Below, piece after piece: positions 6,831-51,314 of a stretch of 64,000 nt of DNA. The stretch's first letter is position 1. Every line of letters begins with the position of its first letter. This DNA is from a virus: the IMG/VR virus record IMGVR_UViG_3300048033_001554, positions 20,354-84,353 of that record; one strand, 5' to 3'. The translations under genes and the position numbers were made by a program. Below the pieces are notes generated by a model. The model was not told where the DNA came from and did not search any database. It saw only the letters and a list, made by a program, of their open reading frames with translations.

Positions 6831-8498
6831 TTAGCCGCGTCTTCTAATACGTGGCCTTGGATACGTTGCGCCAGACGATGGCCTTGGTTTAAAATTTCTT
6901 TGTGGAAAAGTAGATCCATTTATAGCTCTTTGATTAATCCACCTTAAATATCTATTTGGTGCTCCTTGGAGACTATTCACATCAGTTGAATCGTCAGTAC
7001 CAGTATCAAACATTTGATCTATTGAAGCATTGTCAATTAACCATTGTTGAGCTTCAGCCTGTGTAATACTTGGCCAAGATTCTGCTAATAAAGCCAAGAC
7101 TCCAGCTACTTGAGGTCCTGACATGCTCGTTCCTTGATATTTGTCAAAATTATAACCAGATAATCTTGGATCTGCAATATCACCAGTCCTAGCATGCACG
7201 CTACTTTGGATGGCTTCGCCCGCAGCATATATGTCTACTTGATTGCCACAATTAGAAAACGGAGCTTTTTCTTCAGTTGTTCTATTGGACGTTGCACCAA
7301 CAACAATAGCAGGTGCATAACCTGCGCCTGAACCGGTACCTTTGTTTAGTGCCCATTGTAAATTGAATCCGTTATAAGTCATGTAATATATGTTATTGAA
7401 ATCTTGATCTGAAGAATTTACGATTTTCCAAGAGTCATTACCAGCAGAAGCAACTACAATAATACCATCATTCATTGCATCTTGTATATCTGCTTCTCGT
7501 GAATTAAAATAATTTGGGATGCTTGTTGTAGTAGAAGTAGCATAAAACCCGCGAGAAGTCATTTCGTTCAATGTTAATTCTCTGCCTGGATTAAAATCAA
7601 CACCTCTATAATTTACTCTGGTTACTCCACCGGTAGTATACGCATCACTATAATTTGAAATAATAGTAGATCCATAGCTATTGTTCGTAATAGTTGGATT
7701 TCTTCTACCGGTTTCTGGATTGATTGGTTTACTGTTGTGCCAAGCACGTATGTAGTCCCACATAACGGCACTAGAGAGACTGTTAGGGTTCGTACCGTAT
7801 GGACTTATATTATAAATGTTAGCATCTCTAGCCCACCCCTGAGTGTTTCCAGCAACAGTTCCTGCGCAGTGACAACCATGATTATTATCTTCGGCATCTA
7901 TAGAATTAGTGTAAGAACCAGCTCTATCATAAACGTAAGTACCATTAGCACCACCCGTTACAGCATTTGTATGTTGAAACCAATTATATTGAACTACTCT
8001 AGATCCGCCAGATCCATCAGGATTAACTGCAAACTCTGGGTGATTAGGATCTATATGTCCATCAACAATTAAAACATCTACATTTTTACCTGATGCGGTG
8101 ATGGTTAAATTATCTGTTACTAGTGAAGAACCGTTGTCGCCCCAATTAGTTCTATTTGTTTCTTCGGTGTGTCTAAGCAAACCCCAGTTTAAATCACTAG
8201 CATCATCAAACCAGCTTTTATCAAATTCACCATTTGTGATAGAATAACCATGTGGTATTGTTGTTAACTCTAAAAGCTCAGCCAAATCAACGCCAACAAC
8301 TCTATCATCAGCTTTAATTAATTCTACTTCATCTAGTGTTAACATATAATGTGTATTTCTAGAAGTAGGTCTTTTGTTTACTACGTCAACGGCTCTATCT
8401 GGAATAAACAAATTGCCACCAGGTGTTTCCATGTCTTCATAAAAAGATTCTAAATCTTCTTTGCTACGAAGAGTAACAATCCATTCCATCAGTTCCAT
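6831..8498 (-). CDS. Subtilisin-like serine protease (peptidase S8) in the tail operon
   Basis: A complete S8 catalytic set is visible: Asp146 in VLIVDGHID, His207 in NNHGCHCAGT, oxyanion Asn354 in ASAGND and Ser458 in GTSMSGP. About 130 N-terminal residues precede the protease domain and could be a prodomain or virion-docking domain; no signal peptide is seen. The C-terminus is basic and proline-rich (PRPRIRRRG). It sits between the fibre-like gene and gp8, so it is probably a virion component or processes tail proteins. Start chosen at 8498 because GGAGG precedes it at good spacing. The family is certain; the substrate (self, fibre, host surface) is unknown. Confidence 0.85.
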   Translation of the reverse strand: MELMEWIVTLRSKEDLESFYEDMETPGGNLFIPDRAVDVVNKRPTSRNTHYMLTLDEVELIKADDRVVGVDLAELLELTTIPHGYSITNGEFDKSWFDDASDLNWGLLRHTEETNRTNWGDNGSSLVTDNLTITASGKNVDVLIVDGHIDPNHPEFAVNPDGSGGSRVVQYNWFQHTNAVTGGANGTYVYDRAGSYTNSIDAEDNNHGCHCAGTVAGNTQGWARDANIYNISPYGTNPNSLSSAVMWDYIRAWHNSKPINPETGRRNPTITNNSYGSTIISNYSDAYTTGGVTRVNYRGVDFNPGRELTLNEMTSRGFYATSTTTSIPNYFNSREADIQDAMNDGIIVVASAGNDSWKIVNSSDQDFNNIYYMTYNGFNLQWALNKGTGSGAGYAPAIVVGATSNRTTEEKAPFSNCGNQVDIYAAGEAIQSSVHARTGDIADPRLSGYNFDKYQGTSMSGPQVAGVLALLAESWPSITQAEAQQWLIDNASIDQMFDTGTDDSTDVNSLQGAPNRYLRWINQRAINGSTFPQRNFKPRPSSGATYPRPRIRRRG

Positions 8499-36121: not shown

Positions 36122-36451
36122 TTATCCTTCTACAAATTGTTCCCATTTGTTTGGCATACCATCGAACAATTCAGCATCCTCGAGAGGTTCTTTTTGTTCA
36201 TTGATGTTTGGCCAAACCTGAGAGTATTTAGTATTTCTTTCCATCCATATAATCTTATCTGGTTCTGGCAAATCTACGTCAGCAACAATAGCACTAACAG
36301 GACATTCAGGAACGCAAACTCCACAGTCAATACATTCATCAGGATTAATTACTAAAGTATCTTCACCTTCATAAAAACAATCAACTGGACATACAGCAAC
36401 GCAATCGGTGTGTTTACACTTAACACAATTATCCGTTACCAGATAAGTCAT
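36122..36451 (-). CDS. fdxA: 7Fe ferredoxin ([3Fe-4S][4Fe-4S], FdxA type)
   Basis: 109 residues from the ATG at 36451 with GGAGGT upstream. Cys at 9, 12, 17, 21, 25, 40, 43, 46 and 50 reproduce the spacing of Azotobacter-type ferredoxin I shifted by one, including [20 protein letters not shown] and [16 protein letters not shown]. The acidic C-terminal tail ([12 protein letters not shown]) also fits. Low-potential electron carrier. It could serve the cytochrome P450 at 49.7 kb, the flavin halogenase-like protein or the radical-SAM enzymes of this phage; that pairing is inference. Confidence 0.9.
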
Positions 36452-36452
36452 A

Positions 36453-37019
36453 TTATACCTCCAAAAGAGTGATTTGTACACCACTTTCTTTAAACATTAA
36501 AGAACTTTGTTCTTCCCAAATTTCTTGCCAATTACCTTTGTCTGTTTTAGTACTAGGAATTACTACACGCTTAATGCCAGCTTGGATAATGCATTTAGTA
36601 CAAGACGGACAAATAGGTAATCCATAGACATACAATGTAGCATCTTTAACGGCAACACCATTATATAGAGCGTTCATTAATGCATTCATTTCAGCATGGA
36701 TGATACGAGGATATTTTTCCTCCCTACTATTTAGCCTTTCTGGAGTATCCGAAATACCACGAGGAAAGCCATTGTAGCCGGTGGCTAGAATACGTCGTTC
36801 ATCATTAACAATTACAGCACCAATTTTACTTGATGGATCTTTACTCCAACTTGCAATAAGCTCAGCCTGCTCCATGAAACGTCGATCCCATTTAGTAATG
36901 TTATCTTCTACTTCTTTATTCATACGTCGCATGTAGTCTTCGTAAAATTCGTATTCGCCCATGTACTCTTCTTTCTCTTGAAGTTCCATTACATATTGTC
37001 CAATTTTACTCATAATCAT
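36453..37019 (-). CDS. cd: dCMP deaminase
   Basis: 188 residues (T4 Cd: 193). Zinc sites HAEMNAL and [10 protein letters not shown], with [20 protein letters not shown] and [11 protein letters not shown] matching the deoxycytidylate deaminase family. Converts dCMP to dUMP for dTMP synthesis, competing with gp42 for dCMP. Overlaps the gp42 stop (ATGA). Confidence 0.93.
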
Positions 37020-41694: not shown

Positions 41695-42786
41695 TCATTT
41701 TATTTCAAGTTTTTTAGTATGTTTTAAGCTATTTTTCCATCTGCCATTTCTTTTGTTACATGTCTGTGCACAAACTCTGAATGGAACACTACTCCAAGAT
41801 TCTTCTATATGCTTAAACAAACCAGCGTTAAGAATATCTGTGATATCGTGTTTAGTTACATTATTGAATTCTCGGTCTAGTTTTAGCTCAGTGTAAAGCT
41901 TTTTAGAAAGCAATCCTTCTGTATTCTTTAAGACATCACTTTGGACTTCTTGCCCTATCCAACAACAAGGCCACAATTTCTTTTCAGCGGACAAGTAAAC
42001 CATAGCATCTTGATCTGCTTGACATTGAATATCAGCTGTAATATCATAGCTTTCGTCATATGTTTTGGGATATTGCGGTTGAAAATCCCTAACGGTGTCA
42101 TTTCGCCTGTGCTTATAGTTATCTTCGATCGCTGACGCAGGTTCTAAAGAGTATTCTGGTTTGTGCTTCTTATCATATACTATAAGATCCTTGGTGCCCC
42201 ATCTCATAGACACCCTAGATTTAAATTGTTTAAATCCATATTGCTTCGCAAGTTCACGGCATTCTTGTTCTTGGTGCTCATTATGTTTAAAGATGGTCAT
42301 AGCCCAATTCGCCTCTCCACCTGCGTCTATGTAGGCTTTAGCATTTTTCATTACAACACTAAATAACGTATTTCTTCTGTATAAATGATGCGTATCTTCG
42401 AGACCATCTATACCAAATTCTACATTGACGTTATGTTGTTTACCTAACCAAGCCCAAAAATCTGTAGATAAAGCTCCACCATTTGTGTTAATTTTTATAC
42501 GCATACTACGATTTAATAAAACTTCAATTAATCCTTTTGGATTTGAATGTTTAACTATATCTCCAAAATTTCCATTTACTACTACAGTAAAAACATTAGA
42601 AAAATATTCGTGGTCAAGAACCTTTTCTAGCTCTTCTGTAGACCACTCATTTATTTCTAATCCTGGCATTGTTTTAAAAAAAGTATCATAAGTTCTTGGG
42701 CACTGAGGGCATCGAGCATTACATCCGCTAGTAGGCTCTAAGTGTATAGTTCTAATAAGCCTTTTGTATATTCCATAATCAACCAT
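41695..42786 (-). CDS. Radical-SAM protein with C-terminal Cys cluster
   Basis: 363 residues. HLEPTSGCNARCPQCPRTY carries the radical-SAM CxxxCxxC (Cys22, 26, 29). ADIQCQ, KLWPCCWIGQ and RVCAQTCNKRNG near the C-terminus supply Cys for an auxiliary (SPASM-like) cluster. Such proteins are common in marine T4-likes; their substrate is unknown to me, and peptide or tRNA targets are possible. Last gene of the accessory island on this strand before the small-gene region. Confidence 0.8.
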   Translation of the reverse strand: MVDYGIYKRLIRTIHLEPTSGCNARCPQCPRTYDTFFKTMPGLEINEWSTEELEKVLDHEYFSNVFTVVVNGNFGDIVKHSNPKGLIEVLLNRSMRIKINTNGGALSTDFWAWLGKQHNVNVEFGIDGLEDTHHLYRRNTLFSVVMKNAKAYIDAGGEANWAMTIFKHNEHQEQECRELAKQYGFKQFKSRVSMRWGTKDLIVYDKKHKPEYSLEPASAIEDNYKHRRNDTVRDFQPQYPKTYDESYDITADIQCQADQDAMVYLSAEKKLWPCCWIGQEVQSDVLKNTEGLLSKKLYTELKLDREFNNVTKHDITDILNAGLFKHIEESWSSVPFRVCAQTCNKRNGRWKNSLKHTKKLEIK

Positions 42787-42806
42787 TTGTACGCCTATAT
42801 TTGATT

Positions 42807-43706
42807 TTAACCAAAAGCTTCTACTCTATCTATGATATTGTAGTTGCATAAATTTTTTATAATTTTTGTATAGCTCTCGTTTGTATCAATAAACGCAACT
42901 GGAATATTTCCAATAGCATTCTTAGGATCGCCTTTAGTAAAACCCAGAGCAGTAAGATAATTGTTATTTTGATCCCACCAATTATTCATTCCTTCTAAGA
43001 ATTTATTAACGTTGTCTTCTTGCCTATTATGAAAGTAAGCGGTGAAATCTGGGCTATACCATCTTAGTGGACGAATATTATCTTCGCCAACTACGTCGTC
43101 GCCATCTTTAAACACATCATATAAAGGCTTTCCTACTTCACAATAGTTTATATAGACTTCTCCAAATTTTCTTTTTAGAGTGAACAACTCATAATCTGAA
43201 TCTTGTAGATTCAATCTATTTCTGTTATTGAATGTTACAACTATTCTTGGGTAATAACTAGTCTTGCTTTGAAAAGCATTTGCGTAATAATTTTCAGCTC
43301 TATGTATTATTACGTTGTATCTTTCTAAAGCTATTTTTTGAGCATCGTCGCATTCCATAAAAAAGTCAGAAGGTAGCAGAGTGCTACCTCTTAGGTTTTC
43401 AAAATAATGGTGTAAATGATTTAGCTGCTCTTGAGGCATACCAACATATGCTTCATGATGAATTACTTTTTTGTTTTTGTTTATTGTGCTAATACAAGAA
43501 TTTAATTCTTCAACCAGTCTTTCTTCAGTCCATTCACCAGAAGGAAAATTATACATTCTATCCGGTTCTTTTGCAGTATTATCTTTTTCAATTACTTGCT
43601 CTTTTAAACATTGAAACCATCTAATTGCAATGTCGGTATTGTAAACAGTATAGCTTAAGCGATATTCGCCGCCATTGCTGTTCTTAAAAATCACATCAAA
43701 ATACAT
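42807..43706 (-). CDS. Hypothetical protein beside the radical-SAM gene
   Basis: 299 residues, soluble, aromatic-rich. YNTDIAIRWFQCLKEQVIEK, HLHHYFENLRGS, PRIVVTFNNRNRLNLQDSDY, REFGEVYIN-like segments and RPLRWYSPDFTAYFHN. A similar protein accompanies radical-SAM genes in marine phages as far as I remember. Good AAGGAG site and a near-consensus late element (AATAAATA, 43725-43732) upstream. Function unknown. Confidence 0.65.
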   Translation of the reverse strand: MYFDVIFKNSNGGEYRLSYTVYNTDIAIRWFQCLKEQVIEKDNTAKEPDRMYNFPSGEWTEERLVEELNSCISTINKNKKVIHHEAYVGMPQEQLNHLHHYFENLRGSTLLPSDFFMECDDAQKIALERYNVIIHRAENYYANAFQSKTSYYPRIVVTFNNRNRLNLQDSDYELFTLKRKFGEVYINYCEVGKPLYDVFKDGDDVVGEDNIRPLRWYSPDFTAYFHNRQEDNVNKFLEGMNNWWDQNNNYLTALGFTKGDPKNAIGNIPVAFIDTNESYTKIIKNLCNYNIIDRVEAFG

Positions 43707-43726: not shown

Positions 43727-43742
43727 TTTATTGGAGGAAGAC

Positions 43743-44414
43743 ATGGACAATTTTTTAAAATCAATAGATAGAGAAGAATTCAGAAATTATATAGATAATT
43801 CTGTATTCAAAGCTCAAGCGTGCCAACGAAATTGGGACCTATCTAAATTTGTTAATGAAAAGGATTTAGAGTCTATAATTGGTGCTGGAATGAATTGCCC
43901 ATCAAAACAAAATCAAGATTTTTATAATCTTCACGTGATAACTAATAGAGACATCATACAAAAATTATATGAGAGCTCAATTATACCAAATGGAAGAAGA
44001 AAAAATCCTCAATTATTAGCTAATGCAGTTATTCTATTTGAAAGCAAAGAAGTAGAAACTCCTAGATCTGACGAGCAAAAAAAGCTTGCTCTTGCCAAGA
44101 AGGGAATAATATCTCTTACTCAAAAAGATTTAGATGATTGCGAAAAAATAGTGTATAGAGATACTAATCAAAGTTTAGGAATAGCCGCTGGCTTTATTAA
44201 TATTACCTCAGCTATGCTTGGATATGAAACTGGATTTTGCGCATGTTTTGATGATGAAACTGTAAAATCTTTACTTGATATTCGTGGAAAACCATTGCTA
44301 GCAATAGGAATAGGAATAAAGGATGCAAGTAAAGATAGAACAGAAGATCATATAACTGGCGAACTGATATCTAAATATAAAAAAGGTCCTATAGGACTTA
44401 GTTTGCACAAATAA
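43743..44414 (+). CDS. Nitroreductase-family FMN oxidoreductase
   Basis: 223 residues from the ATG at 43743 (GGAGGA upstream). Family features: AQACQRNWDL then DLESIIGAGMNCPSKQNQDF (FMN phosphate/ring contacts, R...N.PS..N), and SLGIAAGFINITSAMLGYET plus GFCACF...KPLLAIGIG (dimer helix and last strand). Reduces nitro groups, quinones or flavins with NAD(P)H. On the plus strand under its own late promoter, ending 4 bases before the convergent operon end. It could supply reduced flavin to the halogenase-like protein (inference). Confidence 0.75.
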   Translation: MDNFLKSIDREEFRNYIDNSVFKAQACQRNWDLSKFVNEKDLESIIGAGMNCPSKQNQDFYNLHVITNRDIIQKLYESSIIPNGRRKNPQLLANAVILFESKEVETPRSDEQKKLALAKKGIISLTQKDLDDCEKIVYRDTNQSLGIAAGFINITSAMLGYETGFCACFDDETVKSLLDIRGKPLLAIGIGIKDASKDRTEDHITGELISKYKKGPIGLSLHK

Positions 44415-44417
44415 GAT

Positions 44418-44696
44418 CTACTTCTTATTTCTTTGAGCATCCTCTGCTTCGATTACTCCTCTAAGTTCAGCGATGAGTTCTTCTGCAAGCTCAACTTGTC
44501 TTAAAGTAATTCTATGAGGTGTATTAGGAAATAAAAATGGCACAAACGCGTGGATGTATCCAGTGATTGCATTGGCCAAACCAAACGTGCTTAGCTTTAT
44601 TGCAAACCACATATGGGTAAAGTATCCGCTGCGAACTTCCTTCAAATGCTCAGTATTAATCAAATAGCCATATCGGCCTAAGTTGCCAAATTTCAT
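44418..44696 (-). CDS. DUF6356-like small membrane protein (copy 2)
   Basis: 92 residues from the ATG at 44696 (GAGG 7 bases upstream). NTEHLKEVRSGYFTHMWFAI and YIHAFVPFLFPNT match the H..E....Y..H...A and HA..PFLF..T pattern of DUF6356. One or two membrane-associated helices. Paralogue of the next gene upstream, 1 base away. Confidence 0.7.
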   Translation of the reverse strand: MKFGNLGRYGYLINTEHLKEVRSGYFTHMWFAIKLSTFGLANAITGYIHAFVPFLFPNTPHRITLRQVELAEELIAELRGVIEAEDAQRNKK

Positions 44697-44697
44697 G

Positions 44698-44910
44698 TTA
44701 AACCTCGTGGTGCTCAAATGTTTCGTGTACTAAGCTAGCTAATTTCTTTGCAGCATTCATAGATGCTTTTTCTAAAGCGAACGGAAAGATAGCATGAATT
44801 GAACTCGTAACAAAAACCGCTAATGACCAAATGACCATGTTAAGTCCAATTTTAATGTGACCAAAATAACCAGTGTTTGCTTTATTTAAATGTGCTACTA
44901 ATGTTGTCAT
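44698..44910 (-). CDS. DUF6356-like small membrane protein (copy 1)
   Basis: 70 residues: AHLNKANTGYFGHIKIGLNM, a hydrophobic helix (VIWSLAVFVTSSIHAIFPFA) and a charged helix. The same pattern as its neighbour, so a tandem duplication. At the end of the coupled metabolic operon; role unknown. Confidence 0.7.
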   Translation of the reverse strand: MTTLVAHLNKANTGYFGHIKIGLNMVIWSLAVFVTSSIHAIFPFALEKASMNAAKKLASLVHETFEHHEV

Positions 44911-44922
44911 ATTTTTCTCCTT

Positions 44923-45600
44923 TTAGTATCCAAAAATTCCTGGAATTAACGTCCTATGGTTTACGTTAACTTTCATGTAGTTAAACCCGTCAGTTAATCC
45001 GTGTTCTATATATAAATCGTAATTAGAGTATCTTTTTATAGATTCTTTAAGGTACTCAGTATCAATCGCAGTCCACATTACTTTGTCTTTACTTGTAATA
45101 TAGGAAAGCTTTTTGTTTTGTATTTCTTCTATATTTGATATATCTATTGCATACTTGCTTTGAAGTATATCGAATATTTTTTGATTAGAAGGATCTATGT
45201 AGGTGAAACATACTTGTTTAGACACGTGACACAATTGCGCTATGCAATATAACATTTCATTTAACTCGTGGTGAGTAAATACACTATTAGCAAATGCAAT
45301 ATCAAATTGGTTTAATTTTGGAAAGTTTTCATTTTTGTTGCCGTGAGGATTGTATGCTTCGTGGTATCTGTTCCAATAAACTACGCCTGCATTTGGATGA
45401 TCTTCAAGCAATTCATTTAATGCGCTTTTACTTATATCTAAGCAAGTATAGTTTTCTTCTAAGATTTTACCTTTTGAATACCACAAAAGGTTTCCTCTGT
45501 TTCCACCAAAGTCAAGAATTTTTTTATCTTCGTAACCATCAACAAATTGATTGAAGATATTAAAGGCGTCAATTCTTTTGAATACAGAATATTTGTTCAT
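44923..45600 (-). CDS. Class I SAM-dependent methyltransferase
   Basis: 225 residues from the ATG at 45600, which overlaps the stop of the upstream membrane-protein gene (TAATG). Motif I ILDFGGNRGNLL, acidic motif II YTCLDISKSALN, motif IV FDIAFANSVFTHHE. Substrate unknown. The coupling suggests a tailoring methyltransferase of the P450-halogenase operon. Confidence 0.8.
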   Translation of the reverse strand: MNKYSVFKRIDAFNIFNQFVDGYEDKKILDFGGNRGNLLWYSKGKILEENYTCLDISKSALNELLEDHPNAGVVYWNRYHEAYNPHGNKNENFPKLNQFDIAFANSVFTHHELNEMLYCIAQLCHVSKQVCFTYIDPSNQKIFDILQSKYAIDISNIEEIQNKKLSYITSKDKVMWTAIDTEYLKESIKRYSNYDLYIEHGLTDGFNYMKVNVNHRTLIPGIFGY

Positions 45601-45845
45601 TAGTATATAGTGGAATTGCCCACTTTGCTCCAATCAATTTCAACTAACCAGTGTGGCTTTTTTCTTTCAATAATCAACAGTAATAAGTATACATCACTTA
45701 TAATCGGAAATGCATAGAATACAAATCTTTCTACAATATTACATCTATTTATTGCCCCACCAATAAGACCGAGTGGATTTTGCATTCTTTCTTTTTCTAA
45801 AATAATAGAACAAACTATAAAACTAACTAATATCAAATACGTCAT
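45600..45845 (-). CDS. Small membrane protein in the metabolic operon
   Basis: 81 residues, two hydrophobic segments (TYLILVSFIVCSIIL and FVFYAFPIISDVYLLLLII) and an aromatic, charged tail (KKPHWLVEIDW). Coupled at both ends: ATGA with the radical-SAM gene, TAATG with the methyltransferase. Not recognised; could anchor the pathway at the membrane. Confidence 0.65.
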   Translation of the reverse strand: MTYLILVSFIVCSIILEKERMQNPLGLIGGAINRCNIVERFVFYAFPIISDVYLLLLIIERKKPHWLVEIDWSKVGNSTIY

Positions 45846-47365
45846 TCGTCTAGCCCTAAAAACTTATCTACTTTATCATAGTAACTTCTTTTCATATAAT
45901 CATGAGCTCTTTCTTTAATAGCAGGATCTATGAACAGTTCCGTAAACGTCATTTTGCGCAATGTTTCAAAATCAAAACCTAAACATTGATAGAACATCAA
46001 AAAGAATGTAGCAACTTTAATGTCGTCAATAAAATTCTCTTGAAGGTTTTTAACGTACTCAACAGCTTCAACACTCGACCAATCGTCTCTTATCCATCTG
46101 TTTGTTTTTTCGTCTATATAAAAACCATAGTCTTTGTAATTTTTTGAAAGCTCAGATGCGGTGCCAAGCTCTAATGGACTAAAAGAAAATGAATCAAATA
46201 AATGCTTGTGCGCAAACAAATCTTTTGACCATTCGTTTATAGTTTCTTCGTTATCTCCTGGAAGACCAGCAATAAAACTACCATATACACTTAAAGAATC
46301 ATTAAACGCCTCTTTTGATTTTTCTATTGTCTCAAAAATCTTTTCTTTGGGGCAGCTTTTGCCAATTGCTTTTGCTGCTTCATAGTTTAGTGACTCAACT
46401 CCTAGAAACCATGCGCATACATTAATCTTTTTAAGTAGCGGCAATTGCTCTGGGAATCTAGCAACTAAATCAATTCTTATGAATGCTGCAAATTCTAGCT
46501 TTTCTGGCAAAGCTAATTCTTCAATAGCATCGGCAATAGCTTGCAGTTTTACTGTTTGTTCATTGAATGTATCATCTATAATTACATATTTAGTTGTACC
46601 ATACAAATCGTAATTTTGCTTGAGCTCATGTTTGATACGCTCTTTTTCTCGTAAAAAAGAATCATCGCCTTTGCGTTTACCAATTAAAGGGTATGCACAA
46701 AACTTACATTTAAAAATGCATCCACGACCAAACTCGATTCCCATCGCATCCTCTGGATTCCAAAAATCCTCGGGTACATAGTTTATAAATGAATTTCTAA
46801 AATCAAATTGATTTCCTTTTGGATCAAAATCAATTACTTTGCATTTACTGCCATACGCAATATTGTAATTTAATTTTGTTCCGTTTTTTTCATGATTAGT
46901 GATATGCTCAGCCATTGCTTCACCCATACCAACTACATAGTAATCAATGCATTCTTCAACTATTGGTTTACGTTGAGTATCCATCATACCGCCGTATACC
47001 GTTTTTGCACCTTTTGAACGAATATAATCTGTCATAGATTTAATATCTTCATCTTGACTTGGCCAATGCCATAGGATATTCATTCTTGCCCCATCACGGG
47101 TATGTCTTTTAGTATAAACATCGTCGCCTCTTCTCATAAAAAGAGTAGAACTAAAACCAACCCATAATGTGTTTGGCCCCATTAATTTATCAAGCAGTTC
47201 GTTAATTTTGCCTTTTTTAATCCAATGAGTAAAGTTATTTAAAACAAACACACTATATCCAAGGTTGCGCATATGAGATGCGATTTTGTAACCGCCTACT
47301 GCACGCGCAACATTAAAGACAGGATCGCCTCCTTCAGTCATTATAATTATGTCGTATGTTTTCAT
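45842..47365 (-). CDS. B12-binding radical-SAM protein
   Basis: 507 residues. N-terminal ~150 residues look like a cobalamin-binding domain (IIIMTEGGDPVFNVARAVGG, ASHMRNLGYSVFVLNNF, TLWVGFSSTLF, KTVYGGMMDT). The radical-SAM cluster motif is GRGCIFKCKFC (Cys216, 220, 223), followed by Elp3-type core strands (KYVIIDDTFNE; KINVCAWFLGVESLNYEA; SVYGSFIAGLPGDNEETI). Such enzymes methylate or rearrange unactivated carbons. No typical DxHxxGG-type loop is obvious, so B12 binding may be degenerate. Operon partner of the P450 and halogenase-like genes. Confidence 0.8.
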   Translation of the reverse strand: MKTYDIIIMTEGGDPVFNVARAVGGYKIASHMRNLGYSVFVLNNFTHWIKKGKINELLDKLMGPNTLWVGFSSTLFMRRGDDVYTKRHTRDGARMNILWHWPSQDEDIKSMTDYIRSKGAKTVYGGMMDTQRKPIVEECIDYYVVGMGEAMAEHITNHEKNGTKLNYNIAYGSKCKVIDFDPKGNQFDFRNSFINYVPEDFWNPEDAMGIEFGRGCIFKCKFCAYPLIGKRKGDDSFLREKERIKHELKQNYDLYGTTKYVIIDDTFNEQTVKLQAIADAIEELALPEKLEFAAFIRIDLVARFPEQLPLLKKINVCAWFLGVESLNYEAAKAIGKSCPKEKIFETIEKSKEAFNDSLSVYGSFIAGLPGDNEETINEWSKDLFAHKHLFDSFSFSPLELGTASELSKNYKDYGFYIDEKTNRWIRDDWSSVEAVEYVKNLQENFIDDIKVATFFLMFYQCLGFDFETLRKMTFTELFIDPAIKERAHDYMKRSYYDKVDKFLGLDE

Positions 47366-47366
47366 A

Positions 47367-48131
47367 TTAACCTTTTCTAGGATTGTTGAAATCTACTGGC
47401 GTTCCGTCTCTTCCGGTATAAAAGAAGCATCCATTTTTTTCTATTACTTTGTCTTTAGTATTGTACCAATCTTCGTACACACATGAATCACCACTCACCC
47501 ACAAAATATTCCTATCCATAATCTTTACCCAACAATTGAAAATATTACCAACGATGGTTGAGTTTGGTGGAGTAAAAGATTTTACTTTATCCACTTCTTC
47601 TTTAGTATTAAATACGTGCATAATTGCATTTACACCAACTTCAGTCATTCCCCATATGCAAATCACCTTAGCGCCTCTTTCAATAAAAGCATCAATGATA
47701 TCATATGTGACTGGCTCGGATCCAACCATAAATGTTTTGCCACTCAAATTAAGATCCTTGAAGCCTTTAGTCATCATTACGCCTTTAGCTTGTTTAGGAG
47801 TCAAGTGTGTATGAGTATATTTATCAACTGCTCTTACATACTGGTAAGGGCTGAAAGGCTCAATCGTTAGTTTAGCACCCGCAATCAAAGCTGGTATAGA
47901 CTGTGCAAATAAACCACCGGCTCTTTCAAGGCTTAAACACGTATATACTGAACTGTCTTTAGTTATTTCTTGTACCTTTATAGCATTTAAAGCATCAGCT
48001 TTTATTTTTGCGGGAGGTTGATACACTTCTTTTGGGATACCAGAAGAACCAGAGGTTTTAATTGTGATACCTTTATCTATTACATCAAGTAAATATTTGT
48101 GCTGGCTATCGTTCAAAGTAGTTGAACCCAA
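47367..48131 (-). CDS. Truncated ANL-type adenylating enzyme
   Basis: 254 residues, half the size of normal ANL enzymes. The N-terminal-domain signatures are present: P-loop TSGSSGIPKE (26-35), A5 WGMTEVG (160-166), A7 SGD (213-215) and A8 FYTGRDG (237-243). The protein ends just after the hinge, so the C-terminal subdomain with the A10 catalytic Lys is absent; closest in style to MenE-like ligases. No ATG occurs before about residue 119, so TTG starts at 48131 (or 48116) are needed; the first overlaps the halogenase-like gene by 26 bases. It may bind or adenylate an acyl or aryl acid only with a partner. Confidence 0.75.
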   Translation of the reverse strand: MGSTTLNDSQHKYLLDVIDKGITIKTSGSSGIPKEVYQPPAKIKADALNAIKVQEITKDSSVYTCLSLERAGGLFAQSIPALIAGAKLTIEPFSPYQYVRAVDKYTHTHLTPKQAKGVMMTKGFKDLNLSGKTFMVGSEPVTYDIIDAFIERGAKVICIWGMTEVGVNAIMHVFNTKEEVDKVKSFTPPNSTIVGNIFNCWVKIMDRNILWVSGDSCVYEDWYNTKDKVIEKNGCFFYTGRDGTPVDFNNPRKG

Positions 48132-49236
48132 ACTCTCGGTCTACGTAACGTAAGACATGATGGCCCATAAAGCGTTCAGTGATTGTCTTAAACATTTCAT
48201 CGTTTTGGTCTGCAACATATCTTTTAAGTACATTAGTTTCTTCTAGGTTATTAGAAGCTCTATGTGTTGCCCACATCCAAAAATCGTTTTCGTAAATAGA
48301 ACCACCGTGGTAGATTAAATTGATTAAATCTTCAACTGCTCGATAGTTTAATATGCAAAGTTCATTTGCTTCATCTTGGGTAATCTCACCACGAATATAT
48401 TGGGAATGTATTTGAGCATTCTTAACTGTCATATACAAAGAGTTGGCACTCATTGGTTCAAAGAATACGGCACGATTACCACTCTTTAATATTTTTCCAT
48501 CTATTGTCTTCTTACAATAATACGGTTTTAAACTAAATGTTCGGAAGTCTTTAATGTCTTTTTCGGTAGCATTTGTAATACGAATAAGTTCTTGTTCGGC
48601 TTCTAGTCTTGTAGCAAATGCGTCATTATATAAAAGCCCGTGAGACGTGCGATGCTGTAATGGAATCACAAACATCCACCCATACTTATGAGCAACGTGG
48701 CGAGTAAAGCCAAAGTCAGACGGTTCAGGATCATCATAAACAAGAGCAGAATTTAGAATTAAATCACATTCTTTGTAATCGGTAAAATCAGTTGGTCTAC
48801 CACGGCAATCAATTACGTAGTCATATTCTTCTAAGTCTTCGTATTCTACGTTTGCATTTAATAGTTTATAATTTGGATATAACTTCTTTAATCTTTCCAA
48901 CCCCATTTTTGCAAAGTCACGAGCATCAAAATGAACAGCATGATAACCTGATTGGAATGGAAATATAATATCATCTTTACGCCAATCAATATAGTGTGTA
49001 CCATATTTTGTAGTACTATTTAATTCTTTAGATTCAGTAGCAAATATGAAATCAAATGCTTGACCAATCGCAAAGGTAACTTCTGATGTCGTGCTTTCAC
49101 CAACACCAAGGATTGGAATGTTTGGATCAAAAATATGAGTAACTTCGCAATCAATACCACGATTTTTAAAATCTCTTAGAATACATCCGGTAGTTAGTAT
49201 GCCAGCGCTTCCTGCACCTAATATTGCAATTTTCAT
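48106..49236 (-). CDS. Flavin-dependent halogenase-like protein (Trp halogenase family)
   Basis: 376 residues. FAD fold GAGSAG (7-12); the family motif GVGESTT (44-50); K77 in TTKYGTHYIDW lies where tryptophan halogenases have their catalytic Lys79 (K.GI.F.NW); GWMFVIP (186-192) is the WxWxIP motif with Phe for the second Trp; EPMSANSLYM (260-269) matches EPLE.TSI. Family members are usually above 500 residues, so this is a compact version. Marine viral halogenases of this family are known (cyanophage VirX1). The missing second Trp leaves open that it is an oxidase rather than a halogenase. ATGA overlap with the GNAT gene. Confidence 0.75.
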   Translation of the reverse strand: MKIAILGAGSAGILTTGCILRDFKNRGIDCEVTHIFDPNIPILGVGESTTSEVTFAIGQAFDFIFATESKELNSTTKYGTHYIDWRKDDIIFPFQSGYHAVHFDARDFAKMGLERLKKLYPNYKLLNANVEYEDLEEYDYVIDCRGRPTDFTDYKECDLILNSALVYDDPEPSDFGFTRHVAHKYGWMFVIPLQHRTSHGLLYNDAFATRLEAEQELIRITNATEKDIKDFRTFSLKPYYCKKTIDGKILKSGNRAVFFEPMSANSLYMTVKNAQIHSQYIRGEITQDEANELCILNYRAVEDLINLIYHGGSIYENDFWMWATHRASNNLEETNVLKRYVADQNDEMFKTITERFMGHHVLRYVDREFGFNYFER

Positions 49237-49748
49237 TCTTCACCTCTTGCTTCTAAATACTTTTTATTATTTAATTTCCATATGTTTTGATTAACACCAA
49301 ACACTTCTTCGTTACTTACATGCTCAACAAGCCCATTCTTTTCAAGTATATAATATAGCTTATTTAATCTTAACATACTTCCGCTTGCATCATTATCAGT
49401 ATTTGTTGTGATATAGATTGGTTCTCCATTAGCCAGATCAATAACTATTGGAAGGTGATAATAAAACATCCAACAATTCATGTGATTGCGGCTTAACCCG
49501 CCAGGCCTAGAATATAATTGAGCACCTCGATATAAAGCTCTATACCCGTCTTTAAATCCATGAAGACCGCTTATCCCAACAATTTTATCGTCTACATATG
49601 TGGCAAACCAAATACCACGATTTTCTATAGTTTCCTCAAACCTCATAGCTTCAAGTGAGTTGTTATTTTTAAACCCAAGTTTATCACACTCGTTAATAAA
49701 TTCTATCAACGCAGGTGAAGTGCCAAATAGAAGACTAGTTTCAATCAT
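49233..49748 (-). CDS. GNAT-like acetyltransferase
   Basis: 171 residues. GIWFATYVDDKIVGISGLHG fits GNAT strands 2-4 and IYITTNTDNDASGSMLRLNK with YYILEKNGLVEH fits strand 5 and helix 4. The CoA-binding R/Q-x-x-G-x-G/A is not clear (GGLSRNHMN instead), so activity is uncertain. Coupled by ATGA to both P450 and halogenase-like genes. Confidence 0.6.
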   Translation of the reverse strand: MIETSLLFGTSPALIEFINECDKLGFKNNNSLEAMRFEETIENRGIWFATYVDDKIVGISGLHGFKDGYRALYRGAQLYSRPGGLSRNHMNCWMFYYHLPIVIDLANGEPIYITTNTDNDASGSMLRLNKLYYILEKNGLVEHVSNEEVFGVNQNIWKLNNKKYLEARGEE

Positions 49749-50992
49749 GAGAATTTAAACTCTAAGTCCTTATAAACTGTCGTACTGCCGAACATTGCTG
49801 GTAATAATTCTGGTTCTTTTGTCATTTCGAAGGTATCAAATCGATCTAGCATTTCGTTAATAATGATTTCAAGAAAATGCTTTACGAGAAAATCGCCAGT
49901 ACAATGGTGAGGACCATAAGCAAGAGTAACTGGTAACGGTTCATCATCACGCTCTAATTTAAATTCGTGTGGATCTTTAAAATACTTAGGATCTCTATTA
50001 GCACCATACGTATATAATAGAACACGTCCGTTTTGATCAAACTTATATCCGTGGTAATCTATTGTTTCAGTAATGTCACGAATGCCACCTTTAAGAGGTG
50101 CAAGCCTCATAGACTCTCGTGCAAATTTAGGAACTAAAGATCTATCAGCTTTTACTCTCTTCACAATTTCCGGATACTTACAAAAATTCATACAAAGGTT
50201 TTGATACATACTTAATGCAAAGGTTGGAATAACTACTGTCCATAGTGATTGGATAAACATATATCCCATTAGCTTTGGGTTGTCGTTATATTCTGTTTGT
50301 TTATCATTTAAGTTATACGCCATGTTTACCATGGTGTCTTTATCTCGACCTTCAAGCATATAGTACTCTAATGACTCACCTACGATCCGAGCAAACATAT
50401 GGTAGAATTCTGTAGTTTCAGCTACTGGCTTATCATAGTCAAAGTCAGGATTAAAATTAGAGAATACGTTCCCAGGTCTCATCCATTCATGAAAGCCATC
50501 TTTAACATAATCTTCGGTAACATCTAATTCTGAGAATGGAAACTCTATTGTTTGAATTTGAGTATCAGTTACAATACGACCAATGTAATCATATGATTTA
50601 AATGATTTGCCTTTTGGTATTCTATCTAAATGATTTGTTAAGTTGTTTTTAAAGATTTCGGTAAAATCACCTGCCCGGCGTTTGATCCAATCTAAACTAT
50701 GCTTTTTTGCTAAATGATGGTGAGGACCTTCACGCAATGTTAATGCGTAACCGGCACGCCAAATTCCACCGAGCGGCGTAGGATCAAAAGGTGCAGGAGA
50801 TGTTTTTGCAAGGCTAAATGTTTCATTCATCTTGGAAGCTTCTTTGAGCTTATCCATAGAAAAAATAATCCAATGCCTATAAACAGGGTGCCAGAAAAAA
50901 CCACGTTCTTCATTTTCAAATAAGAACTGAGTGTGCTCTTCCATTTTATACAAGAAATCTGGATTTACAATATCAAAATCAATTTTACGCAT
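49745..50992 (-). CDS. Cytochrome P450
   Basis: 415 residues, normal bacterial P450 length. K-helix ExxR is E293-S-M-R296 (FARESMRLAP); the conserved ANRDP (331-335) and F...R (FKLERDD) follow; the heme loop LAYGPHHCTG places the axial Cys at 364, with the following helix (DFLVKHFLEIIINEML). Two oddities: the first Phe-Gly of FGxGxHxCxG is Leu-Ala, and the I-helix lacks the usual AGxDTT (here QSLWTVVIPTFALS), so the oxygen-activating acid-alcohol pair is missing. No membrane anchor. First gene of a coupled operon; a phage ferredoxin is at 36.1 kb. Confidence 0.92.
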   Translation of the reverse strand: MRKIDFDIVNPDFLYKMEEHTQFLFENEERGFFWHPVYRHWIIFSMDKLKEASKMNETFSLAKTSPAPFDPTPLGGIWRAGYALTLREGPHHHLAKKHSLDWIKRRAGDFTEIFKNNLTNHLDRIPKGKSFKSYDYIGRIVTDTQIQTIEFPFSELDVTEDYVKDGFHEWMRPGNVFSNFNPDFDYDKPVAETTEFYHMFARIVGESLEYYMLEGRDKDTMVNMAYNLNDKQTEYNDNPKLMGYMFIQSLWTVVIPTFALSMYQNLCMNFCKYPEIVKRVKADRSLVPKFARESMRLAPLKGGIRDITETIDYHGYKFDQNGRVLLYTYGANRDPKYFKDPHEFKLERDDEPLPVTLAYGPHHCTGDFLVKHFLEIIINEMLDRFDTFEMTKEPELLPAMFGSTTVYKDLEFKFS

Positions 50993-51011: not shown

Positions 51012-51314
51012 TTAAAGATCAGCGGTTTCCGGTGTAAATGTGATAGACCATCCTTCAGATCGCAACTGAGCTTTAACACCCTCAGAAACATCTGCCATCA
51101 TTATTTGGTATTCTTCAACTGCGGCATCATTCCATTCAGTTACAACTGTATGCGTATTGCCGTCACTGCTTATTACCGTACTCCTATTTCCGTTTTCTAG
51201 ACAAACATCTAAATAATATGTTACTTCTAACGGCAATAGAGATGATATGTATTGCAATGCTTCTCGAGCGGTGAGCTCTGTGCTTGGTGTGAAAACAACT
51301 TGTTGTGATATCAT
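51012..51314 (-). CDS. Hypothetical protein upstream of the P450 gene
   Basis: 100 residues, mixed alpha/beta: TAREALQYISSLLPLEVTYY, EYQIMMADVSEGVKAQLRSE, ending WSITFTPETADL. Reads like a small alpha/beta domain; no cofactor motif. 19 bases before the P450 start, so probably the same transcript. Function unknown. Confidence 0.6.
   Translation of the reverse strand: MISQQVVFTPSTELTAREALQYISSLLPLEVTYYLDVCLENGNRSTVISSDGNTHTVVTEWNDAAVEEYQIMMADVSEGVKAQLRSEGWSITFTPETADL

Follow-up and report, generated by a model that had tools for sequence, protein, structure and literature searches.

A compact halogenase-superfamily protein as putative tailoring enzyme of a phage-borne P450/radical SAM operon

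A halogenase-fold protein within a phage operon

We found that a 64,000-nt stretch of viral DNA (referred to as the window; it makes up most of an 84-kb virus record) encodes a compact protein of the flavin-dependent halogenase superfamily, here called HAL, as the third gene of an operon together with a cytochrome P450, an acyltransferase, an AMP-binding ligase and a B12-type radical SAM enzyme. Whether HAL acts as a flavin-dependent tailoring enzyme in a phage-borne biosynthetic operon is, in our judgement, an evenly balanced question; we infer its use of halide, the substrate, the order of the reactions and the role of the product. The initial annotation of this DNA had singled out HAL but overlooked its altered active-site positions (Ser263 for Glu346, and the Fx.Px.Sx.G motif) as well as the operon, where the main information lies. 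The genes, in operon order and followed by two further genes of interest, are:

49745-50992, minus strand: cytochrome P450, 415 aa (Pfam p450 2.6e-11; PDB P450tol 8e-21; alignment)
49233-49748, minus strand: GNAT-fold acyltransferase, 171 aa (predicted model)
48106-49236, minus strand: HAL, compact FAD-dependent halogenase-fold protein, 376 aa (profile, predicted fold, alignments)
47367-48131, minus strand: truncated AMP-binding ligase, 254 aa (Pfam AMP-binding 6.6e-13; alignment)
45842-47365, minus strand: B12-type radical SAM enzyme, 507 aa (Pfam Radical_SAM 6.6e-17; NCBIfam PhpK/HpnJ-like; alignment)
45600-45845, minus strand: small membrane-type ORF, 81 aa, in some cassettes (ORF list, cassette comparison)
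44923-45633, minus strand: SAM methyltransferase MT1, 236 aa (Pfam Methyltransf_12 1.1e-7)
44698-44910, minus strand: DUF6356 protein, 70 aa (Pfam PF19883 4e-7)
44418-44717, minus strand: DUF6356 protein, 99 aa (Pfam PF19883 4e-10)
51012-51314, minus strand: 100-aa protein, directly upstream of the P450 in many, but not all, cassettes (cassette comparison)
36122-36484, minus strand: FdxA-type ferredoxin (NCBIfam FdxA 3.5e-44, above cut-off)

The operon is translationally coupled: P450 and GNAT genes as well as GNAT and HAL genes overlap by 4 nt (-4, both ATGA overlaps), HAL and ligase genes by 26 nt (-26), and ligase and radical SAM genes lie 1 nt apart (+1). Purifying selection is observed for HAL, P450, GNAT, ligase and radical SAM enzyme. 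The HAL ORF is intact with an ATG start codon (window ORF list), and its comparison with one relative gave a pN of 0.10 versus a pS of 0.65, so that we regard HAL as a selected protein.

Sequence motifs and predicted fold of HAL

The match of HAL to halogenase families is far beyond chance, with an E-value of 4.4e-28 (98.8 bits; curated cut-off 21) for Pfam Trp_halogenase and of 1.3e-60 for PHROG 2928, 'tryptophan halogenase'. The features read from the letters in the initial annotation are all present in the ORF, i.e. a length of 376 aa, the GxGxxG FAD motif as GAGSAG (residues 7-12), GVGESTT (residues 44-50), Lys77 as the Lys79 equivalent (context TTKYGTHYIDW) and GWMFVIP (residues 186-192) at the WxWxIP site, where the first Trp (Trp187) is kept and the second is replaced by Phe as in most compact relatives. 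WxWxIP is missing from some known halogenases (PMC8407142). Lys77 is invariant in our first HAL alignment and occurs in 61 of the 63 sequences of a viral-relative alignment; Trp187, Glu260, Pro261 and Trp320 are shared by 63/63. Most of these 63 relatives came from a scan with a pattern on the Fx.Px.Sx.G region, so the conservation of this motif is not independent evidence; the Lys77 count is independent of the pattern.

Where Trp halogenases have their catalytic Glu346, HAL carries Ser263; 22 of the 63 viral relatives share a Ser at this site (a sample biased by the search pattern, which needs part of Fx.Px.Sx.G). The Fx.Px.Sx.G motif itself is altered to FFEPMSANS, Ser being replaced by Ala and Gly by Ser; the longer homologues of pelagiphage HTVC008M and phage Syn1 have Ala-Thr-Ser at the same site. 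Active enzymes are said to share this tunnel motif, though in variant forms (PMC8407142), and its alteration weakens the claim of halogenating activity while superfamily membership is unaffected. The loss of Glu346 argues for a substrate other than free tryptophan, and by eye we saw no match in HAL to the Trp4 substrate-binding motif (PMC8269204); the chain falls short of full-length relatives in several stretches, its C-terminal end among them. For these two reasons a free-tryptophan halogenase identity was set aside; judged from the sequence, free tryptophan is an unlikely substrate.

The structure prediction that had been proposed as a check bears out the assignment: the AlphaFold2 model of HAL (mean pLDDT 92, pTM 0.91) matches full-length halogenases along nearly the whole chain. 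Its best Foldseek matches are Trp halogenases (PyrH, 3.6e-24), and by VIA-align the nearest folds are likewise true Trp halogenases with Z-scores of 33-41 (SttH: Z 41.1, 358 residues, 2.9 A), as compared to 30.9 for VirX1, 29.4 for CndH and 28.6 for CmlS. Relative to the HTVC008M and Syn1 enzymes, HAL is shorter by about 50 residues behind position 98 and by several smaller segments, C-terminal ones among them. Taken with the predicted fold match, this suggests that the halogenase fold is present and its outer part reduced. HAL thus belongs to the flavin-dependent halogenase superfamily by profile, predicted fold, FAD motif and lysine, and with Pfam, PHROG, Lys77 and model in agreement the earlier label of a 'compact flavin halogenase-like protein with catalytic Lys' is upheld.

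Membership in the superfamily would also be compatible with a hydroxylase. QhpG has a halogenase-like fold and hydroxylates peptide tryptophan without halogenating it; similar to FAD-dependent halogenases, it has kept Trp181/Trp183 and Glu42 (PMC7876137). Were HAL a flavin monooxygenase of this kind, the operon would be purely oxidative, and its weak match to the NCBIfam QhpG model (3e-4), the loss of the second Trp and of Glu346, and the neighbourhood of its compact viral relatives point that way. In a random sample of such neighbours, 2OG-Fe(II) oxygenases (PF13640) accounted for 15/60 genes within 1.5 kb but for only 2/60 genes more than 3.5 kb away (Fisher p 0.001, a value too small since some loci are related); among 50 hand-picked neighbours, 22 had PF13640 and 14 PF13759, counts that may overlap. 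However, Lys77 is nearly invariant although a QhpG-like hydroxylase should have no need of it, and its retention therefore argues for hypohalous-acid chemistry; the model, too, lies nearest to true Trp halogenases, with CmlS and CndH scoring lower. On balance we consider a hydroxylating HAL rather unlikely and keep to the halogenase-superfamily tailoring enzyme.

Compact halogenase-like proteins in phages

The initial annotation had suggested a 'second, smaller phage type' of halogenase. Such a type is real but already known, as relatives of 359-399 aa are encoded by GenBank phages (S-SSM7, S-SSM5, S-ShM2, CP21), most of them annotated as tryptophan halogenase, and a 393-aa phage protein in BFVD (A0A6J5L5N7) is named 'Flavin-dependent halogenase'. 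Our viral-contig scan yielded at least 513 loci with HAL relatives, and most of the 101 viral relatives checked for ORF length measure 356-428 aa. The compact phage halogenase type is a large existing family and not new here. Several contigs carry more than one member: a 10-kb viral contig (L132:52-9624) has four halogenase-like genes (360, 476, 428 and 521 aa) alternating with genes of about 200 aa, at least some of which match 2OG-Fe(II) oxygenases, and two or three halogenase-like genes each are found in L124, L135 and L151.

Distribution of the cassette

Scans of 2.9 million viral contigs with the P450, the ligase and the GNAT as starting points, and the close matches of the radical SAM scan, all led to the same ~20 contigs, of which several are near-identical, bringing the number of independent lineages nearer to 13. 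The order of the cassette genes is constant across these contigs and the core genes P450, GNAT, ligase and radical SAM are strictly linked, whereas the flanks vary. The hallmark of a phage-encoded cluster, a co-oriented, conserved biosynthetic gene set on phage contigs, is thereby found. MT1 is present in every cassette whose contig extends that far. Searching 50,697 phage records with tblastn we found no relative of the P450, the GNAT, the ligase, the radical SAM enzyme or the 99-aa DUF6356 protein, and a phage P450/radical SAM cassette was not found in open PMC text. On plasmids, matches to the P450 show only 18-28% identity and those to the radical SAM enzyme 25-28%. As regards a cellular source, pattern scans of GTDB genomes that drew on the alignments of the P450 and of the radical SAM enzyme gave no relative, a weak test with two short peptides each.

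HAL is absent from 4/20 testable cassettes (L022, L023, L050, L052); we found no halogenase elsewhere in these records, which are fragments of 14-51 kb. Moreover, the HAL tree conflicts with the core-gene tree. Based on both observations we consider HAL to be optional and independently exchanged, a tailoring rather than a core enzyme, and the HAL-less cassettes suggest that the pathway runs without it. The same absences and the same disagreement of trees would fit a stronger reading, namely that the enzyme was captured, would have no particular tie to the operon and sits as a mobile insert between the GNAT and ligase genes. Yet HAL, where present, is always found at one site, its start and stop codons overlapping or abutting those of its neighbours, and distant relatives of the B12-radical SAM gene pair with halogenase-like genes even in phages that lack the cassette (L069, L071, L081, L102, L113). 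We therefore regard a mere insert as improbable, and treat HAL as a tailoring enzyme of the operon.

The flanks consist of structural-type genes and glycosyltransferases in some phages (L002, L004) and of heme oxygenase and phosphate transporter genes in others (L001, L011). The heme oxygenase (L001:1233-1775) and PHO4-like phosphate transporter (L001:3290-4249) genes adjoin the cassette in several phages. Beside the cassette of the L002-L005 phages lies a FabB-like beta-ketoacyl synthase gene (L002:14397-15605; NCBIfam beta-ketoacyl-ACP synthase I 6e-154, below cut-off). As a pathway member this ketosynthase was considered but treated as an extra, since it is restricted to the L002-L005 type and absent from the window.

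Partner genes and proposed pathway

The P450 has its heme Cys364 in YGPHHCTG and the ExxR motif as Glu293/Arg296. In its I-helix (VVIPT) the usual acid is absent and Thr257 is kept. NCBIfam CypC matches residues 92-348 (4e-10); despite this match and the acid-less I-helix we did not file the protein as a CYP152-type peroxygenase, as the position that we take to hold the arginine of this group is Ile here. For the GNAT, neither a Pfam family nor, by sequence search, a PDB relative was found; its model (pLDDT 87.5) matches GNAT folds by Foldseek (7e-6) and VIA-align (Z 12.9). The ligase keeps the TSGSSGxPK phosphate-binding loop and WGMTE, and is without the N-terminal part and the C-terminal lid (A10 Lys); in AMP-ligases the lid bears a catalytic lysine. 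The radical SAM enzyme has the cysteine motif CIFKCKFC and weakly resembles hopanoid/lipid enzymes such as HpnJ (NCBIfam). Some of its relatives have a C-terminal 2OG-oxygenase-like domain, which the window copy lacks; in one record the B12-radical SAM enzyme is fused to such a domain (L001:9890-11941, HRDHG), which L002 encodes as a gene of its own.

Among possible redox partners, FdxA could serve the P450 or the radical SAM enzyme; it was found in 1/15 other cassette records, all of them fragments. A nitroreductase-family gene on the opposite strand near the operon (43731-44414) could act as flavin reductase; beyond it no flavin reductase was identified, and no carrier protein was recognised.

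We propose that the AMP-ligase-like protein would activate a carboxylic substrate, probably aromatic or amino-acid-like, which the B12-type radical SAM enzyme and the P450 would then modify at unactivated carbons. HAL would bind host-supplied FADH2 and, with O2 and halide, form hypohalous acid that may pass through the internal tunnel to Lys77 and on to an electron-rich ring, while GNAT and methyltransferase would cap the product. The latter may be a component of the host envelope or of the virion that has been modified, or else a small molecule made in the infected cell. Against a halogenating pathway we counted the Ser at the Glu346 position, the altered Fx.Px.Sx.G, the precedent of QhpG and the HAL-less cassettes, and also the lid-less ligase, the lack of a recognised carrier protein, the acid-less P450 I-helix and the nitroreductase-family nature of the sole flavin-reductase candidate. 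In its widest form, the proposal holds that marine alphaproteobacteria are infected by T4-like phages with a P450/GNAT/halogenase/AMP-ligase/B12-radical SAM/methyltransferase pathway of their own, which is complete, specific to the phage lineage and lacks a close cellular counterpart, and which makes a new, optionally halogenated compound in lytic infection; this we put forward tentatively, as something less than an even chance.

Instead of making a free small molecule, the cassette might modify a polymer, be it tail-fibre protein, host lipopolysaccharide or capsule; this is compatible with either view of HAL. In the L002/L004 group the operon indeed follows structural-type genes and glycosyltransferases, and in cyanophages S-RIM4 and S-ShM2 a compact halogenase lies just upstream of structural and fibre genes. 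The resemblance of the B12-radical SAM enzyme to HpnJ and that of one flanking 2OG enzyme to LpxO, both weak, also favour a polymer. On the other hand, the location of the cassette varies, the L001 and L011 copies lying beside heme oxygenase and phosphate-transporter genes, and an AMP-ligase combined with a P450 is more typical of small-molecule pathways. On balance we rate a polymer target as somewhat less likely than not.

Host, setting and other genes of the virus

The baseplate wedge protein is closest to those of T4-superfamily phages that infect Sinorhizobium and Caulobacter. DUF6356, looked for in 14 control genomes, turned up in Caulobacter only. Both observations make an alphaproteobacterial host likely. 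The cassette carriers are probably T4-like phages with alphaproteobacterial hosts. The cyanophage and pelagiphage relatives suggest a marine setting.

Elsewhere in the window, an ORF with subtilisin-like motifs (6831-8498; HGCHCAGTVAG, GTSMSGPQVAG) among structural genes possibly encodes a virion protease. A SPASM-type radical SAM gene (41695-43706) adjoins that of a 299-aa protein outside recognised families; in L021, a relative of this protein is encoded close to the cassette. At its other end, the virus record encodes a 1711-aa collagen-like tail-fibre-type protein with GxQG repeats (L026:1709-6844) and a 3272-aa protein (L026:7275-17093).

Comparison with known systems

P450s are very rare in phages. 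In ~20 contigs we find such a P450 in strict linkage with an acyltransferase, a ligase and a B12-radical SAM enzyme, usually with a halogenase in addition; a 2022 paper names one phage example, from Mycobacterium phage Adler (PMC9405906). Knowledge of the product would reveal the benefit that phages draw from at least some of the many 'tryptophan halogenase' genes annotated as auxiliary metabolic genes, the question that VirX1 left, and small halogenase-fold enzymes would become available along with the genes that naturally accompany them.

VirX1 (cyanophage Syn10, PDB 6QGM) shares phage origin, halogenase fold and catalytic lysine with HAL, but has 531 aa instead of 376, HAL being without C-terminal parts and the stretch after position 98 (as seen against the HTVC008M and Syn1 homologues). 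To our knowledge, VirX1 is not known from a P450/radical SAM operon. The compact enzymes of S-SSM7, S-SSM5, S-MS29, S-ShM2 and Campylobacter phage CP21 are like HAL in size, in their invariant Lys and, for most, in GWxF; they are 25-34% identical to it and stand alone by structural, talC or gp33 genes, without the cassette. SttH, PyrH and PrnA agree with HAL in fold, FAD motif, Lys79 equivalent and the first Trp of WxWxIP, but at ~20% identity, with Glu346 and Fx.Px.Sx.G altered in HAL. QhpG, too, has a halogenase-like fold and works alongside a radical SAM enzyme (QhpD) in a modification pathway; HAL scores 19.8 bits against a cut-off of 240 with the QhpG model (NCBIfam), the radical SAM enzyme of the operon is of the B12 type, and no companion precursor peptide was noticed.

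According to a review, phage-encoded biosynthetic gene clusters (Dragos 2021) are rare and belong mostly to temperate phages (PMC10452541). The window cassette resembles these clusters as a phage-borne biosynthetic operon and differs from them in its T4-like carrier and in its combination of P450, B12-radical SAM enzyme and halogenase. The conserved phage P450/GNAT/ligase/B12-radical SAM operon is the stronger part of our findings, and represents a new variant of phage-encoded biosynthesis.
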